From Iodidimonas sp. SYSU 1G8 (GTDB lineage Bacteria; Pseudomonadota; Alphaproteobacteria; SMXS01), in contig NZ_JBBYXJ010000001.1 in assembly GCF_039655775.1 (NCBI RefSeq), positions 186,001 to 250,000 on the forward strand: a stretch of 64,000 nucleotides of DNA, given 5' to 3'. Positions within the stretch are counted from its first letter, which is position 1. The number at the start of each line of letters is the position of its first letter. The position numbers and the translations under genes are program-made. This document shows positions 30,639 through 61,937 of the stretch, piece by piece. The notes beneath the pieces were generated by a model. That model did no database searches, was not told where the DNA came from, and was given only the letters and a program-made list of their open reading frames with translations.

Positions 30639-31745
30639 CTAGACCAGCAGCTTCTGCTCTTCCTTCGGCTGGCGCTTGGCATCGAAGGCGGCCCAGACGC
30701 CATTGGCGCCATCCCAGCTTCCCTTTGTCGCGCCCTTCGAATATTCCGTGGCGCGCTGCTCGAAGAAGTTGGCGTGCTCGACACCGTTCAGGATTTCCAC
30801 CAGCCACGGCAGCGGATGCGCCTTGATCTGGCTGTAGGTGTTGTCGTGCTCGCTGAAGTAGCCGAACACGGGCGACAGCTTCAGCTGGGTCAGCCGCCAG
30901 TCGGCGACATAACGAACATAGGCGCGGATGTCCTCGGCGGTCATGCCCTGGATCCCGCCCAGGCCAAAGGCCAGATCGACGAATTGTTCCTCCAGATGGA
31001 CCATGGTCTTGGCCACGTCGATGATGTCGTCGCGCACGGCCTTGGTCACGGCGCCGGTTTCGCGATTCCACTGATGGTAAAGCCGAATGATGCCCTCGCA
31101 GTGCAGGCTCTCGTCCCGCACCGACCATGACACGATCTGGCCCATGCCGTTCATCTTGTTGTGGCGCGGGAAGTTCAGCAGCATGGCGAAGCTGGCGAAC
31201 AGCGACATGCCCTCGGTGAACGCGCCGAACATGGCCAGCGTACGGGCCACGTCCGACACCGTGCCGACACCGAAGGTGTGCATGTAGTCGGCCTTGTCGC
31301 GCATTTCACGATAGTCGCGGAACGCTTCGAATTCGGCCTTCGGCATGCCCAGCGTCTTCAGCAGCAGGGCGTAGGCGTCGATATGCACCGTTTCCATGTT
31401 GGTGAAGGCGGCCATCATCATCTGCACCTCGATCGGCTGGAAGATCGGGATGTAGCGCTTCAGATAGTTGTCGCCCACTTCCACGTCCGACTGGGTAAAG
31501 AAGCGGAAAATCTGGGTCAGCAGGGCGCGCTCGGCCGGCGTCACACGGTCCGAGGTCCAGTCCTTGATGTCCGCGCCAAGCGGCACCTCTTCGCCCATCC
31601 AGTGCGTCTGCTGCTGGCGTTTCCAGAAATCGTAGGCCCATGGATAGCGATCGACGTCATAGGTGCCGGTGGCCGTCAGCAGGCCGACCTTGCCGGTACC
31701 GATCAGGCTGCGCGGGTCGACATGGGACAGGTCGCTCACTGACAT
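30639..31745 (-). CDS. nrdB: Ribonucleoside-diphosphate reductase, small (radical) subunit
   Basis: A 368-residue class I RNR beta subunit. The six metal ligands can be placed: Asp87, Glu118, His121, Glu178, Glu212 and His215. The tyrosyl-radical residue is Tyr125 in ETVHIDAY, so this looks like a classical Tyr-bearing class I form rather than a Phe-type. The ATG at 31745 lies inside the last codons of nrdA (10-base overlap), so translation is coupled. An upstream GTG at 31754 is not preferred. NrdB generates the radical that NrdA uses to make deoxynucleotides aerobically. Confidence 0.95.
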   Translation of the reverse strand: MSVSDLSHVDPRSLIGTGKVGLLTATGTYDVDRYPWAYDFWKRQQQTHWMGEEVPLGADIKDWTSDRVTPAERALLTQIFRFFTQSDVEVGDNYLKRYIPIFQPIEVQMMMAAFTNMETVHIDAYALLLKTLGMPKAEFEAFRDYREMRDKADYMHTFGVGTVSDVARTLAMFGAFTEGMSLFASFAMLLNFPRHNKMNGMGQIVSWSVRDESLHCEGIIRLYHQWNRETGAVTKAVRDDIIDVAKTMVHLEEQFVDLAFGLGGIQGMTAEDIRAYVRYVADWRLTQLKLSPVFGYFSEHDNTYSQIKAHPLPWLVEILNGVEHANFFEQRATEYSKGATKGSWDGANGVWAAFDAKRQPKEEQKLLV

Positions 31746-33691
31746 GCGAGGCACTCCTCGTAATCCGTGCGCTCACCCTGGACCACGTGCATCTCGGCCT
31801 TTTCGAGCTGGCCCGCGAAAGCGGCGCGGCTGATCGATTTCGAGCGGCAGTAATACAGGCTCTTGATGCCCTTTTCCCAAGCGGTCCAGTGCAGCATGTG
31901 CAAGTCCCACTTGTCGATGTCCGCTGGCAGATAGAGGTTCAGGGACTGGCTCTGGCAGATGAAGGGCGTCCGGTCGGCCGCCAGGTCGATCAGCCAGCGC
32001 TGGTCGATCTCGAACGCGGTGCGGAATACCGCCTTCTCGTCTTCGTCCAGGCACGCCAGATGCTGCACCGAACCTTCATGCTCGACGATGGACTGCCAGG
32101 TTTCCGCGGTATCCTCGCCCTTGCGCGCGAGCAGGTCCTGCAGATACGGATTGCGGACCGGGAAGGCGCCGGACAGCGTCTTGTGGGTATAGATGTTGGC
32201 CGGGATCGGCTCGATGCAGGCGCTGGTGCCGCCGCAGATGATGCTGATCGAGGCGGTCGGGGCGATGGCCAGCTTGTGGCTGAAGCGCGCCTTCATGCCG
32301 CGCTCCAGCGCATCGGGGCAGGGGCCGCGCTCTTCCGCCAGCGCGACCGAGGCCGCGTCGGCCTCGCGGCGGATCTTGCGGAAGATTTTCATGTTCCACG
32401 ACTTGGCCATGGCGCTCTCGAAGGGAATGCCGCGCGCCTGCAGGAACGAGTGGAAGCCCATGACGCCCAGGCCGACCGACCGCTCGCGGAACGCCGAATA
32501 GCGGGCGCGCTTCATGCTGTCGGGCGCTTCTTCGATGAACTGGGTCATCACGTTGTCGAGGAAGCGCATGACATCCTCGATGAAGCCCGGCTCGTTGTTC
32601 CACTGATCCCAGGTCTCGACGTTCAGCGACGACAGGCAGCACACGGCCGTGCGCTCCTCGCCATGGTGGTCGACACCGGTCGGCAGGGTGATCTCGCTGC
32701 ACAGATTGGACGTGGACACCTTCAGGCCGAGATCGCGCTGATGCTTGGGCAATGCCCGGTTCACCGCGTCGATATTGAGGATGTAGGGCTCACCGGTCTG
32801 GATGCGCGTCTCCAGGATGCGCTGCCAGAGCTGGCGGGCGTTGACCTCGCGGATGGTCTGGCCGGTCTTCGGGCTGACCAGAGGGAACATGGCGCCGTCG
32901 CGCACCGCTTCCATGAAGGCATCGGTGACGTTGATGCCGTGGTGCAGGTTCAGGCCCTTGCGGTTGAAATCGCCGGACGCCTTGCGGATTTCGAGGAACT
33001 CCTCGATTTCCGGATGGTGAATGTCCAGATAGACGGCCGCCGAGCCACGGCGCAGCGAACCCTGGCTGATCGCCAGGGTCAGGCTGTCCATCACATGGAT
33101 GAAAGGCACGATCCCCGAGGTCTCGCCGCAGCCCTTCACCGGCTCGCCGATGGAGCGCACGTTGCCCCAATAGGTGCCGATGCCGCCGCCATTGGACGCC
33201 AGCGCGACATTCTCGTTCCAGATGTCGACGATGCCGTCGAGGGAATCGGGCACCGTGTTGAGGAAGCATGAGATCGGCAGGCCGCGCGTGGTGCCGCCAT
33301 TGGACAGGATCGGCGTCGCGGGCATGAACCACAGCCGCGAGACCGCGTCATAGATGCGCTGCGCGTGTTCCACATCGTCGGCATAGGCACAGGCGACGCG
33401 CGCGAACATATCCTGGTAGGACTCGCCGGGCAGCAGGTACCGATCTTCGAGCGTCGCCTTGCCGAAGGGCGTCAGCAGGGCGTCGCGGCCGCGATCGAGC
33501 ACGAGGTCGGCCGGGGTCGGCTTCGGCGCCAGCGGCATGGGCAGCGGCGCGCGCTTGGCCGGCTCGGCCGATGACGCGTCCGCCGAGAATTTGAAGGGAA
33601 GCTGCGATGGTGGAATGGGAAGACGCGCTGCGGGCTGCTGTTGCGGCACCAGATGTCCGTTACGGTCGAAGTCGTAAGCGAGCGAAGACAT
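31736..33691 (-). CDS. nrdA: Ribonucleoside-diphosphate reductase, large (catalytic) subunit
   Basis: A 651-residue class I alpha subunit. The active-site residues are Cys142 in PISCF, and Asn329-x-Cys331-x-Glu333 in NLCSE. The paired Tyr in LYYCRSKS carries the radical path, and the C-terminal redox pair is Cys647-x-x-Cys650. The N-terminus has a Pro-rich extension of about 65 residues with no ATP-cone, so overall-activity inhibition by dATP through that domain is not expected. Transcription starts beyond a cobalamin riboswitch on the same strand. nrdB overlaps its end. Confidence 0.95.
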   Translation of the reverse strand: MSSLAYDFDRNGHLVPQQQPAARLPIPPSQLPFKFSADASSAEPAKRAPLPMPLAPKPTPADLVLDRGRDALLTPFGKATLEDRYLLPGESYQDMFARVACAYADDVEHAQRIYDAVSRLWFMPATPILSNGGTTRGLPISCFLNTVPDSLDGIVDIWNENVALASNGGGIGTYWGNVRSIGEPVKGCGETSGIVPFIHVMDSLTLAISQGSLRRGSAAVYLDIHHPEIEEFLEIRKASGDFNRKGLNLHHGINVTDAFMEAVRDGAMFPLVSPKTGQTIREVNARQLWQRILETRIQTGEPYILNIDAVNRALPKHQRDLGLKVSTSNLCSEITLPTGVDHHGEERTAVCCLSSLNVETWDQWNNEPGFIEDVMRFLDNVMTQFIEEAPDSMKRARYSAFRERSVGLGVMGFHSFLQARGIPFESAMAKSWNMKIFRKIRREADAASVALAEERGPCPDALERGMKARFSHKLAIAPTASISIICGGTSACIEPIPANIYTHKTLSGAFPVRNPYLQDLLARKGEDTAETWQSIVEHEGSVQHLACLDEDEKAVFRTAFEIDQRWLIDLAADRTPFICQSQSLNLYLPADIDKWDLHMLHWTAWEKGIKSLYYCRSKSISRAAFAGQLEKAEMHVVQGERTDYEECLACQ

Positions 33692-33798
33692 ACAGCGTTT
33701 CTTTCTCTTCTCGTGGCGGGGAATCGAAGGACGCTATCCGGCGCTAAACTCCGGCATGCACCCCCAAGGCCCTCCGCCCAGGGACGTTTCCAACTTCC

Positions 33799-33977
33799 AC
33801 GGCAGGTTTCCTGGCTTGCGGGTCACCGCTTCTGCCTGGCCTTCCCGGCGTTGCCGCCAGTGACGCGAACGACAGTTGCTCGCCGCCTACAGTTGCGGGG
33901 GCAGCCCCGGATTCGCAGGGTTTTTGCCTGCTTCCCGGCTTCCCTTTTACCCCAAATATGACTGTTCGAGGCACCGT
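33799..33977 (-). promoter_or_regulatory. Cobalamin (B12) riboswitch upstream of nrdAB
   Basis: Read on the minus strand, the region shows the conserved elements of the cobalamin riboswitch in order. These are GGTGCC at the 5' end (33970-33975), AAAAGGGAAGCCGG, then GGCTGCCCCCGCAACTGTAG (around 33887-33906), the B12-box-like CACTGGCGGC, GGGAAGGCCAGG, and AAGCCAGGAAACCTGCC closing the P1 region near 33801. The spacing and the GCCCCCGCAACTGTA box are diagnostic. It lies 108 bases before the nrdA start, leaving room for an expression platform. B12 should repress this B12-independent reductase. Confidence 0.94.
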
Positions 33978-33986
33978 GGACGCAAC

Positions 33987-34015
33987 ATCTTGTGCTCGGC
34001 AGGGGGTATCGTCAA
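33987..34015 (-). promoter_or_regulatory. Candidate sigma-70 promoter for the riboswitch-nrdAB transcript
   Basis: On the minus strand TTGACG (34010-34015) and CAAGAT (33987-33992) are 17 bases apart. The -35 matches 5 of 6 and the -10 matches 3 of 6. The predicted start near 33980 falls just before the GGTGCC element of the riboswitch, which supports the call. Confidence 0.5.
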
Positions 34016-34236
34016 GCGCATTGATGATCGCGATTTCGTGATAATCAGGTTGACATCGGCAACCCCAAGCGAAGCCGCGGACCTTGGCGCTGGAGCCCGA
34101 ATTGTCTCCGGTCACGAGGGGTATTATGCTGCCCGCATGGGGGAGTTTTGGCGGCGGCATGAGGTGGGGGCGTTGCATCCGGCATGGCTGCCGGGCATGC
34201 TCGCCAACCATACTGGCATCGTCCAAGGAGCCTCAC

Positions 34237-35538
34237 ATGAGTGGAACAAAGAGCCCGAACCCTGAAACACTGGTGCTCCACGCAGGCTATCGCGCCGATT
34301 CCACGACCGGCGCGGTGGCCGTGCCGATCTATCAAACCACGTCCTACCAGTTCCGCGACGCGGACCATGCGCGCCGTCTGTTCGCGCTGGAGGAGTTGGG
34401 AAATGTCTATACCCGGATCATGAACCCGACGACCGGGGTGCTGGAAGACCGGATGGCGGCCTTGGAGGGCGGCGCGGCCGCGCTCGCGGTCGCTTCGGGA
34501 CAGGCTGCGTCGGCGCTGTCGCTTCAGAACCTGGCATCGGCGGGCGACAATGTGGTGAGCTCGACCGATCTCTATGGCGGGACCTGGAATCTGTTCGCCA
34601 ATACGTTGCGCGCCCAAGGCATCGAGGTCCGCTTCGTCGATCCCTCCGACCCGGAGAATTTCCGCCGGGCAACCGATGCGCGCACCCGGGCCTATTACGC
34701 CGAGACGTTGCCGAATCCCAAGTTGCAGGTCTTCCCCATTTCGGAAGTGGCGGCCATCGGACGCGAGGCAGGGATCCCGCTGATCATGGACAACACGGCC
34801 GCGCCGCTGCTGTGCCGGCCGTTTGACCATGGCGCGGCCATCATCGTGTACTCCCTGACCAAATATATCGGCGGTCACGGCACTTCGATCGGCGGCATGA
34901 TCATCGACAGCGGACGCTTCGACTGGGAGGCGCATTCCGACCGTCAGCCCAATCTCACCCAGCCCGATCCGAGCTATCATGGCGCGGTCTGGACCGACGC
35001 GGTCCGGCCGCTGGGACCCATCGCCTACATCATGCGCGCGCGGACAGTGCTGCTGCGTGACCTTGGCCCCGCACTGAGCCCGATGAATGCGTTCATGATC
35101 GCGCAGGGGCTGGAGACGCTGCCGCTGCGGATGGAGCGGCACTGCGCCAATGCCAACAAGGTCGCGGCGTGGCTCGCCGCCCGCGGCGACGTCACCCGCG
35201 TCATCCATCCGAGCCAGCAGAAGGGCGAGGCGCGCCGCCGGGCGGACGCCTACCTGAAACAGGGCTATGGTGGGCTGATCGGCTTCGAACTGGCGGGAGG
35301 CGTCGATGCGGGCCGCCGTTTCATCGATGCACTGAAGATGTTCTACCACGTCGCCAACATCGGCGATGCGCGCAGCCTGGCCATTCATCCGGCCAGCACG
35401 ACCCACAGCCAGCTATCCCCGGAGGAACAGCTGGCCACGGGTGTGACCGATGGCTATGTGCGCCTGTCCATCGGCCTGGAACATATCGACGATATTCTCG
35501 CCGACCTGGAGCAGGCCCTGGCCGCGTCGGGCGGCTAG
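34237..35538 (+). CDS. metY: O-acetylhomoserine aminocarboxypropyltransferase (MetY-like), PLP-dependent
   Basis: A 433-residue Cys/Met-metabolism PLP enzyme. The cofactor lysine is in SLTKYIGGHG, the phosphate and substrate motifs are YTRIMNPT and ASGQAASALS, and the long insert RFDWEAHSDRQPNLTQPD places it in the O-acetylhomoserine sulfhydrylase (MetY) group rather than cystathionine gamma-synthase. It should make homocysteine or methionine precursors from O-acetyl- or O-succinylhomoserine. AAGGAG lies seven bases before the ATG at 34237. A TTGACA at 34050 lacks a good -10. No SAM riboswitch was recognised in the 260-base upstream region. Confidence 0.88.
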   Translation: MSGTKSPNPETLVLHAGYRADSTTGAVAVPIYQTTSYQFRDADHARRLFALEELGNVYTRIMNPTTGVLEDRMAALEGGAAALAVASGQAASALSLQNLASAGDNVVSSTDLYGGTWNLFANTLRAQGIEVRFVDPSDPENFRRATDARTRAYYAETLPNPKLQVFPISEVAAIGREAGIPLIMDNTAAPLLCRPFDHGAAIIVYSLTKYIGGHGTSIGGMIIDSGRFDWEAHSDRQPNLTQPDPSYHGAVWTDAVRPLGPIAYIMRARTVLLRDLGPALSPMNAFMIAQGLETLPLRMERHCANANKVAAWLAARGDVTRVIHPSQQKGEARRRADAYLKQGYGGLIGFELAGGVDAGRRFIDALKMFYHVANIGDARSLAIHPASTTHSQLSPEEQLATGVTDGYVRLSIGLEHIDDILADLEQALAASGG

Positions 35539-59789: not shown

Positions 59790-61937
59790 ATGTCGGATAC
59801 CAAGAAGCCCACCGTCGATGAATGGAAGGCGCTGGCCCAGAAGGAACTGGGGCAGACTCCGCTGGCCAATCTGGACTGGGAAACCCCCGAAGGCATCACG
59901 GTAAAGCCGCTCTACACCTCGGAGGATCTCGAGGCGATGGCGGAAGACGAAAACCTGCCCGGGTTCTTCCCGTTCACCCGCGGCGTGCGCGCCACCATGT
60001 ATTCCAACCGTCCGTGGACCGTGCGCCAGTACGCGGGCTTCTCGACCGCCGAGGAGTCCAACGCCTTCTACCGCCGTAATCTGGCCGCCGGCCAGATGGG
60101 CTTGTCGGTCGCGTTCGATCTGGCGACCCACCGCGGCTATGACAGCGATCATCCGCGCGTCGTCGGCGATGTCGGCAAGGCCGGCGTGGCCATCGACAGC
60201 GTCGAGGACATGAAAATTCTCTTCGACCAGATCCCGCTCGACAAGATGTCGGTCTCGATGACCATGAATGGCGCCGTGATCCCGACGCTCGCTTTCTACA
60301 TCGTCGCCGCCGAGGAGCAGGGCGTATCGGCCGACAAGCTGGCCGGGACCATCCAGAACGACATCCTCAAGGAGTTCATGGTCCGCAACACCTACATCTA
60401 TCCGCCGACGCCCTCCATGCGGATCATCGCCGACATCATCGAGTACACGGCCAAGAACATGCCGAAGTTCAACTCGATCTCGATCTCCGGCTACCACATG
60501 CAGGAAGCCGGCGCGACCCAGCTCCAGGAACTGGCCTTCACCCTGGCCGACGGCATGGAATATGTCCGCGCCGCCCAGGCCAAGGGCATGGACGTCGATG
60601 CCTTCGCCGGCCGCCTGTCGTTCTTCTTCTGCATCGGCATGAACTTCTTCATGGAAGTCGCCAAGCTGCGCGCGGCGCGCATGCTGTGGGCGCGGATCAT
60701 GAAGGATTTCGGCGCCAAGAAGCCGGGTTCGCTGATGCTGCGCACCCATTGCCAGACCTCGGGCGTGTCGCTGACCGAGAAGGACGCCTACAACAACATC
60801 ATCCGCACCACGGTCGAGGCCATGGCCGCGGCCTTCGGCGGCACCCAGTCGTTGCACACCAACGCGTTTGACGAAGCCGTCGCGCTGCCGACCGACTTCT
60901 CGGCCCGTCTGGCGCGCAACACCCAGCTGATCCTGCAGGAAGAGACCGGCATCACCCATGTCATCGACCCGCTGGGTGGCAGCTACTATGTGGAAAGCCT
61001 GACCAAGTCGCTGGCGGATGCCGCGTGGGAGCTGATCCAGGAAGTGGAAGCCCTGGGCGGCATGACCAAGGCCGTCGACAGCGGCATGCCCAAGCTGAAG
61101 ATCGAGGAAGCCGCCGCCCGCAAGCAGGCGCGCATCGATCGCGGCGAGGAAGTCGTTGTCGGCGTCAACAAGTACAAGCCGTCCAGCGAGCAGCCTTTCG
61201 AGGTGATGGACATCGACAACACCAAGGTGCGTGAGTCCCAGGTGATTCGCCTGAAGCACGTGCGCGAGACCCGCGACGAAGCCGCCTGTCAGGCGGCGCT
61301 GGCCGCCCTGACCGAGGGCGCGGCGGGCGATGCCAACCTGCTCGAGCTGGCGGTCAACGCGGCACGGGCCCGCGCCACGCTGGGCGAGATCTCGGATGCC
61401 ATGGAAAAGGTGTTCGGCCGTCACCGCGCCGAAATCCGCTCCATCTCCGGCGTCTATGGCGCGGCGTACGAGGGCGACGAAGGCTTCGCCAATATCCAGA
61501 AGGATATCGAGACGTTCGCCGCCGCCGAAGGCCGCCGGCCGCGCATGCTCGTCGTCAAGATGGGCCAGGATGGTCACGACCGCGGCGCCAAGGTCATCGC
61601 GACCGCCTTCGCCGATATCGGCTTCGACGTCGATGTGGGCCCGCTGTTCCAGACCCCCGAGGAAGCCGCCCGCCAGGCCGTCGAAGCCGACGTGCATGTG
61701 ATCGGCGTGTCCTCGCAGGCCGCCGGCCACAAGACCCTCGTGCCGGCGCTGATCGGGGAACTGAAGAAGCAGGGCGCGGGCGATATCCTGGTTGTTTGCG
61801 GCGGCGTCATTCCGCCGCAGGATTACGATGCGCTGTATGACGCCGGCGTTGCCGCCGTCTATGGCCCGGGCACCAATATTCCCAACGCCGCCGCCGAAAT
61901 CCTCGGCCTGCTCGACAAGAAGCGAGCGGCCGCGTAA
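59790..61937 (+). CDS. scpA: Methylmalonyl-CoA mutase, B12-dependent
   Basis: A 715-residue mutase of the single-chain ScpA/Sbm length. The N-terminal TIM barrel (residues 1 to about 560) has [21 protein letters not shown] and [19 protein letters not shown]. The C-terminal B12 domain has [20 protein letters not shown] with the axial-ligand DxHxxG, then [12 protein letters not shown]. It converts methylmalonyl-CoA to succinyl-CoA for propionate use. It needs adenosylcobalamin, which links it to the B12 riboswitch in front of nrdAB. No epimerase or MeaB gene is adjacent. Confidence 0.94.

Follow-up and report, generated by a model that had tools for sequence, protein, structure and literature searches.

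The window, a 64,000-nucleotide stretch (64 kb) of the Iodidimonas sp. SYSU 1G8 genome, carries on its minus strand the genes nrdA and nrdB of a class I ribonucleotide reductase (RNR), preceded by a cobalamin riboswitch. The features of this locus are as follows:

30639..31745, minus strand: nrdB, class I small subunit, from its ORF and profiles (ORF listed from a GTG at 31754)
31736..33691, minus strand: nrdA, class I large subunit, 651 aa, from its ORF and profiles
33692..33698, minus strand: 3' arm ACGCUGU of a predicted 7-bp start-codon helix, directly before the ATG, from fold and sequence
33731..33737, minus strand: 5' arm AUAGCGU of the same helix (one G-U pair), from fold and sequence
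33764..33782, minus strand: P13-L13, CCTGGG-CGGAGGG-CCTTGG, with one stem mismatch and with CGG at 33776-33774 complementary to L5
33784..33993, minus strand: cobalamin riboswitch aptamer, complete Rfam RF00174 match, closed by P1 (33980-33974 with 33802-33796)
33896..33901, minus strand: L5 loop CCCCCG, from sequence
33980..33995, minus strand: predicted NrdR box, GCACAAGATGTTGCGT, abutting the aptamer, from a matrix scan
33987..33992, minus strand: -10-like CAAGAT, 17 nt from the -35-like element and inside the NrdR box
34010..34015, minus strand: -35-like TTGACG, from sequence

Both proteins scored above curated class I cut-offs, NrdA with 1014.9 bits for NF006577 (cut-off 620) and NrdB with 513.8 bits for NF007186 (cut-off 237), and they also matched PF02867 and PF00268, respectively. 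Their prediction as class I subunits is borne out by this profile-based assignment. Pfam revealed no ATP-cone in either NrdA or NrdB. As read from the ORFs, the ATG of nrdB (31745) overlaps the stop codon of nrdA, ATGTCAGTGA. Upstream lies a divergent ORF (34084-35538, plus strand) for an enzyme of the O-acetylhomoserine sulfhydrylase type.

The original prediction had placed cobalamin riboswitch elements at 33799-33977, and the covariance search that it proposed recovered them within an RF00174 match at 33993-33784 (minus strand) scoring 114.7 bits against a cut-off of 31.5 (E 5.2e-28) and covering 189 of 189 model positions (1-189). P1 pairs UCCACGG (33980-33974) with CCGUGGA (33802-33796). 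L5 and P13-L13 can likewise be placed, the L5 loop CCCCCG (33901-33896) being complementary, CCG with CGG, to the L13 loop CGGAGGG (33776-33770), which reads CGGGG in most relatives. These CCG/CGG kissing bases, together with the role of P13, are defined in PMC10653944. The match ends 92 nt before the nrdA start (33691) and is the sole riboswitch in the window at gathering threshold, the remaining Rfam match being a tRNA. The arrangement of a riboswitch before nrdAB is confirmed as real.

In the whole genome (3.92 Mb) there are five RF00174 matches including that of the nrdA leader; the other four lie before cobW-cobN, a TonB-dependent receptor gene and two further B12 operons. Of the riboswitches on these two operons, one precedes a membrane-protein ORF (recognized by eye) followed by cobT-cobS-cobU, and one precedes an operon for a TonB receptor, a periplasmic binding protein and a FecCD permease, which we take for btuB-btuF-btuC. 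The genome also contains cobQ. A class II NrdJ had been foreseen for this cell, and two loci exceed the cut-off of the NrdJ_Z model. The larger protein is of the PRK07562 type (2172 bits), while the second is an NrdJ_Z protein interrupted by an intein with a LAGLIDADG domain (L016:5359-8811; C1:2231358-2234810 in its own genome). G005, G084 and G086 have an equally long insert at the same NrdJ profile position (282), and G029, G033 and G038 have one of nearly equal length. The original prediction had been staked on a class II RNR and on B12 import or synthesis in this genome, and it holds up with two NrdJ loci, four riboswitches before B12 genes and CobN. The B12-dependent mutase that had been noted in the same window is likewise present at 59790-61937 (plus strand), with MM_CoA_mutase and B12-binding domains. 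MetE was considered as a second riboswitch target and was rejected, as no MetE match was found in the genome.

The best 80 nrdA loci among the matches listed, from named genomes, served as relatives, and 79 of these were scanned with Rfam. In three of the 79 (L028, L044 and L055) the leader region is missing, L028 having only 122 nt of it. RF00174 lies upstream of nrdA in 38 of the 79, in one case (L039) with approximately 590 nt between riboswitch and nrdA. This gap, in Magnetospirillum fulvum (L039:2411-3000), contains open frames that look, on visual inspection, like an ATP-cone and an NrdD C-terminus. NrdJ scored over its cut-off in 65 of the genomes of these 80 loci. Among the 38 riboswitch genomes, 35 have such an NrdJ and three have NrdJ fragments (G007, G037, and G068). 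For the 77 assessable loci (L096 judged by eye), counting fragments as NrdJ gives 38 with switch and NrdJ, 0 with the switch only, 28 with NrdJ only and 11 with neither (Fisher p 0.0004, uncorrected for kinship), and the strict cut-off gives 35, 3, 28, and 11, respectively (p 0.036, likewise uncorrected). The 11 genomes without NrdJ are confined to a single branch of the NrdA tree (15 rows, support 92), and therefore both p-values overstate independence. NrdJ over the cut-off is also absent from the genome of the excluded L044 locus (G028). Since NrdJ is found in 28 of the 39 assessable relatives lacking the switch, its presence does not imply the switch. A motif test rather than Rfam flagged 20 of 67 further nrdA leaders (from relatives and class samples, possibly overlapping the 80) as riboswitch-like, and these stand outside the 38/79 count.

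B12 regulons have been treated by Rodionov and Vitreschak. Our literature search, which covered openly available papers, turned up no description of an nrdAB riboswitch in Alphaproteobacteria or of the loss of one. Streptomyces cells, like the present one, also have a B12-dependent class II enzyme. A B12 riboswitch on a class I RNR is already a known kind, seen in Streptomyces and Propionibacterium acnes, and two features of the Streptomyces arrangement, a class I NrdAB target and a class II RNR in the genome, occur in the window genome. The earlier statement that such control is known in Streptomyces agrees with the title on the coenzyme B12 riboswitch of nrdABS (Borovok et al. 2006, as cited in PMC5962746). 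As in the window, the Streptomyces riboswitch lies upstream of a class I reductase, but it belongs to another phylum and by that title acts on transcription, whereas translational control would apply here. The P. acnes nrdAB leader (PMC3848588) resembles ours in its annotated cobalamin riboswitch, a single NrdR box overlapping the promoter and an NrdJ in the genome, but differs in that the nrdDG leader is annotated with a riboswitch too and in that much of the nrdAB transcription seems to stop short of the gene. Among Alphaproteobacteria, cobalamin riboswitches stand before metE and btuB of Caulobacter crescentus; B12 turns off the translation reporters of both, and metE encodes a B12-independent isozyme as nrdAB does. 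Unlike the situation in the window, PMC6538847 places the B12 riboswitches of C. crescentus on metE and btuB only, with none on nrd genes.

We consider it likely that the cobalamin riboswitch represses class I nrdAB when B12 is plentiful, with NrdJ taking over and nrdAB held as a backup. The original interpretation, that B12 switches class I off in a cell containing NrdJ, is supported at the level of sequence, where the aptamer, the gene identities, NrdJ, the B12 genes, an NrdR gene with a box-like site and the co-occurrence in relatives can all be read. From these we infer the ligand, the direction of control, its translational level, the coupling of the two genes and the binding of NrdR. Adenosylcobalamin or a related corrinoid would bind the aptamer, L5 (CCCCCG) would kiss L13 (CGGAGGG) and P13 would be stabilized. 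The helix AUAGCGU/ACGCUGU would then form beside the nrdA start codon and block initiation, with nrdB following nrdA via translational coupling at the overlapping stop and start codons. When B12 is plentiful, deoxynucleotides would come from the two B12-dependent NrdJ enzymes; when it falls, nrdAB would be translated as the backup.

The level of control was assessed mainly from the relatives. GGNCGG, the L13 motif, occurs downstream of the aptamer in 37 of 38 riboswitch-bearing relatives, whereas an upstream control stretch has it in 7 of 38. In 36 of these 38 relatives the Shine-Dalgarno region is covered by a helix of at least 6 pairs, compared to 25.0 ± 2.4 (maximum 31) in 200 shuffles. From this motif and this enrichment, we suggest that translational control is favored for the riboswitch group. 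A Shine-Dalgarno pairing probability above 0.5 in 33 of 38 relatives is an uncontrolled value, with start codons set by a script rule, and was not relied upon. A regular expression for L5 (CCCG) succeeded in 34 of 39 leaders and missed L045 and L047-L050. The predicted expression platform of the window itself is atypical: it scores 0 in the Shine-Dalgarno helix test and lacks a Shine-Dalgarno hairpin, and it has instead the 7-bp helix beside the ATG, which was spotted after the fact and without a control. Folding of the four sister leaders described below predicts a matching helix that takes in the start codon, also a post hoc reading without a control. Control by premature transcription termination, for instance Rho-dependent, would have a precedent in the P. 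acnes nrdAB transcription that largely appears to end at its annotated riboswitch (PMC3848588), but a scan of 33500-34300, which takes in the stretch between aptamer and gene, yielded 0 intrinsic terminators, and the relatives are enriched in hairpins at the ribosome binding site. We regard termination as unlikely here.

The proposed repression by B12 must also be weighed against what has happened within the genus. We sampled six congeners and found nrdAB in four of them. In the NrdA tree the window species is sister to these four (SH-aLRT 99 for the four and 100 for the five). Alignments show that the four sister leaders retain TTGAC, the NrdR-type box, P1, P2, part of P3 and the post-aptamer region, and that the ligand core and L5 are missing. 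Of the five nrdAB-bearing species sampled in the genus, an intact switch is seen in the window species alone. L13 reads CAG, CTG, CGA and CGG in the four sisters, compared to CGG in 37 of 38 switch-bearing leaders. A single deletion in the ancestor of the four would be the most parsimonious account of these sequences. NrdJ exceeds its cut-off in 10 of 10 family genomes, the four sisters included, and since four NrdJ-bearing sisters have lost the aptamer core, B12 control appears to be dispensable. Each of the six congeners has exactly one RF00174 match, compared to five in the window species, and the gene behind it encodes a TonB-dependent receptor in 6 of 6. A search for CobN gave matches in 3 of the 10 family genomes, but for the proteins of G082 and G087 the top-scoring assignment is magnesium chelatase subunit H. 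A protein scoring as CobN is thus left in the window species alone among the 10, and none was found in the four sister species in this search, one of which (G084) is 78% complete. This suggests that the nrdAB switch persists where B12 is home-made and went where B12 must be imported, which is a lead rather than a test because it rests on one phylogenetic contrast, the window species versus one clade of four. The nrdA loci of L017 and L018 have the same places as those of G083 and G082, of the window's genus, even though their titles read Candidatus Kuenenia stuttgartiensis and Sphingomonadales, so at least one title is wrong.

The sister clade without a core could also mean that the aptamer in the window has kept its B12 binding and lost its hold on nrdAB, the platform having decayed in the genus as an early stage of the sisters' loss. 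The altered L13 fits with this, as does the missing Shine-Dalgarno helix, since all 38 riboswitch-bearing relatives have at least 5 pairs there (33.3 ± 1.6 in shuffles). In the window, however, L5 CCG and L13 CGG are still complementary, the aptamer is intact over all 189 positions and the 7-bp helix lies right beside the ATG; we judge uncoupling to be quite unlikely.

In the four congeners (L098, L099, L100, and L101), where the riboswitch core is missing, a compact nrdAB leader of approximately 110 nt stands before the P13 region. We tried it as a new general B12 riboswitch and rejected this, as a covariance model from the four leaders confidently refinds only those four; in the 10 family genomes they score E 5e-26 or better and everything else E 0.24 or worse. 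Its identity is lower than that of nrdA third codon positions in 4 of 6 species pairs, equal in 1 and higher in 1, and the folds of two of the four, L017 and L018 (111 nt), gain little or nothing over shuffled sequence (z -1.1 and -0.7). The model matches, low identity and weak folds lead us to read it as a remnant. By eye, L137, L027, L035, L033, L130, L131, L028 and L031 resemble riboswitches that decayed or were shortened independently of one another, L137 having kept the 3' core motif with its L5 region gone; at E 5, RF00174 has no match in L017, L018, L027, L028, L031, L033 or L035. A separate structured leader, approximately 200-300 nt upstream of nrdA, occurs at 13 loci of a single clade (support 97; L058, L059, L061, L063, L064, L065, L067, L068, L069, L071, L072, L073, and L076). 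These leaders carry NrdR-type boxes (by eye; 11 of them in the matrix analysis) and contain neither RF00174 nor any other Rfam family at gathering threshold. An alignment of all 13 is poor. RNAalifold on seven of the 13, hand-picked and aligned by sequence alone, gave two hairpins with 17 pairs, 12 of them with at least one compensatory change. It is a doubtful prospect that this leader is a new nrdAB-specific regulatory RNA, possibly for another ligand, descended from the cobalamin leader. On that reading, the nrdAB leaders that replace the riboswitch in relatives would not all be dead relics.

Transcription of nrdAB may be under a second regulator. Of the TTGACG promoter in the original prediction, the hexamer is present (34015-34010), its TTGAC being common to the window, L017, L018, L019, and L021, but the -10 element, CAAGAT, matches the consensus at a poor 3 of 6 positions and a consensus scan of 33500-34300 reported no promoter over threshold. 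A matrix trained on 22 NrdR boxes from other loci gave its top score in the 64 kb, 17.8 bits, to the site at 33995-33980, followed by the same site on the other strand (11.2) and the next site (10.2). Of the 38 relatives with the riboswitch, 20 likewise have a site of at least 8 bits by this matrix, 1 to 4 nt ahead of the aptamer match. Because the genome has an NrdR gene and the box abuts the aptamer, NrdR may work in series with the riboswitch and, from the box over the -10, add nucleotide-dependent control of transcription. A model in which nrdAB answers to NrdR only, the RNA being a structural relic, would be in line with this gene and strong box, and with the NrdR-type boxes before nrdA in many relatives lacking the switch (22 loci in the matrix; some by eye), but the full-length aptamer is kept in 38 relatives at only about 69-82% NrdA identity, and we find this very unlikely. 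Activation of nrdAB by B12 rather than repression would have a precedent in one activating corrinoid riboswitch described in PMC10653944, but the target here is a B12-independent isozyme in a cell with NrdJ and the predicted helix covers the start region, and we find activation scarcely credible.

The preferred reading, repression of nrdAB by B12 with NrdJ taking over, would tie an RNA sensor to the choice between B12-dependent and B12-free synthesis of DNA precursors. Its added value over the known kind is the comparison with sister species that lost the switch. One species with the switch and CobN set against four sisters with nrdAB and NrdJ, their aptamer core gone and no CobN found in them, makes a clean comparative system, in which it is now directly testable whether cells keep the nrdAB switch because they make their own B12.
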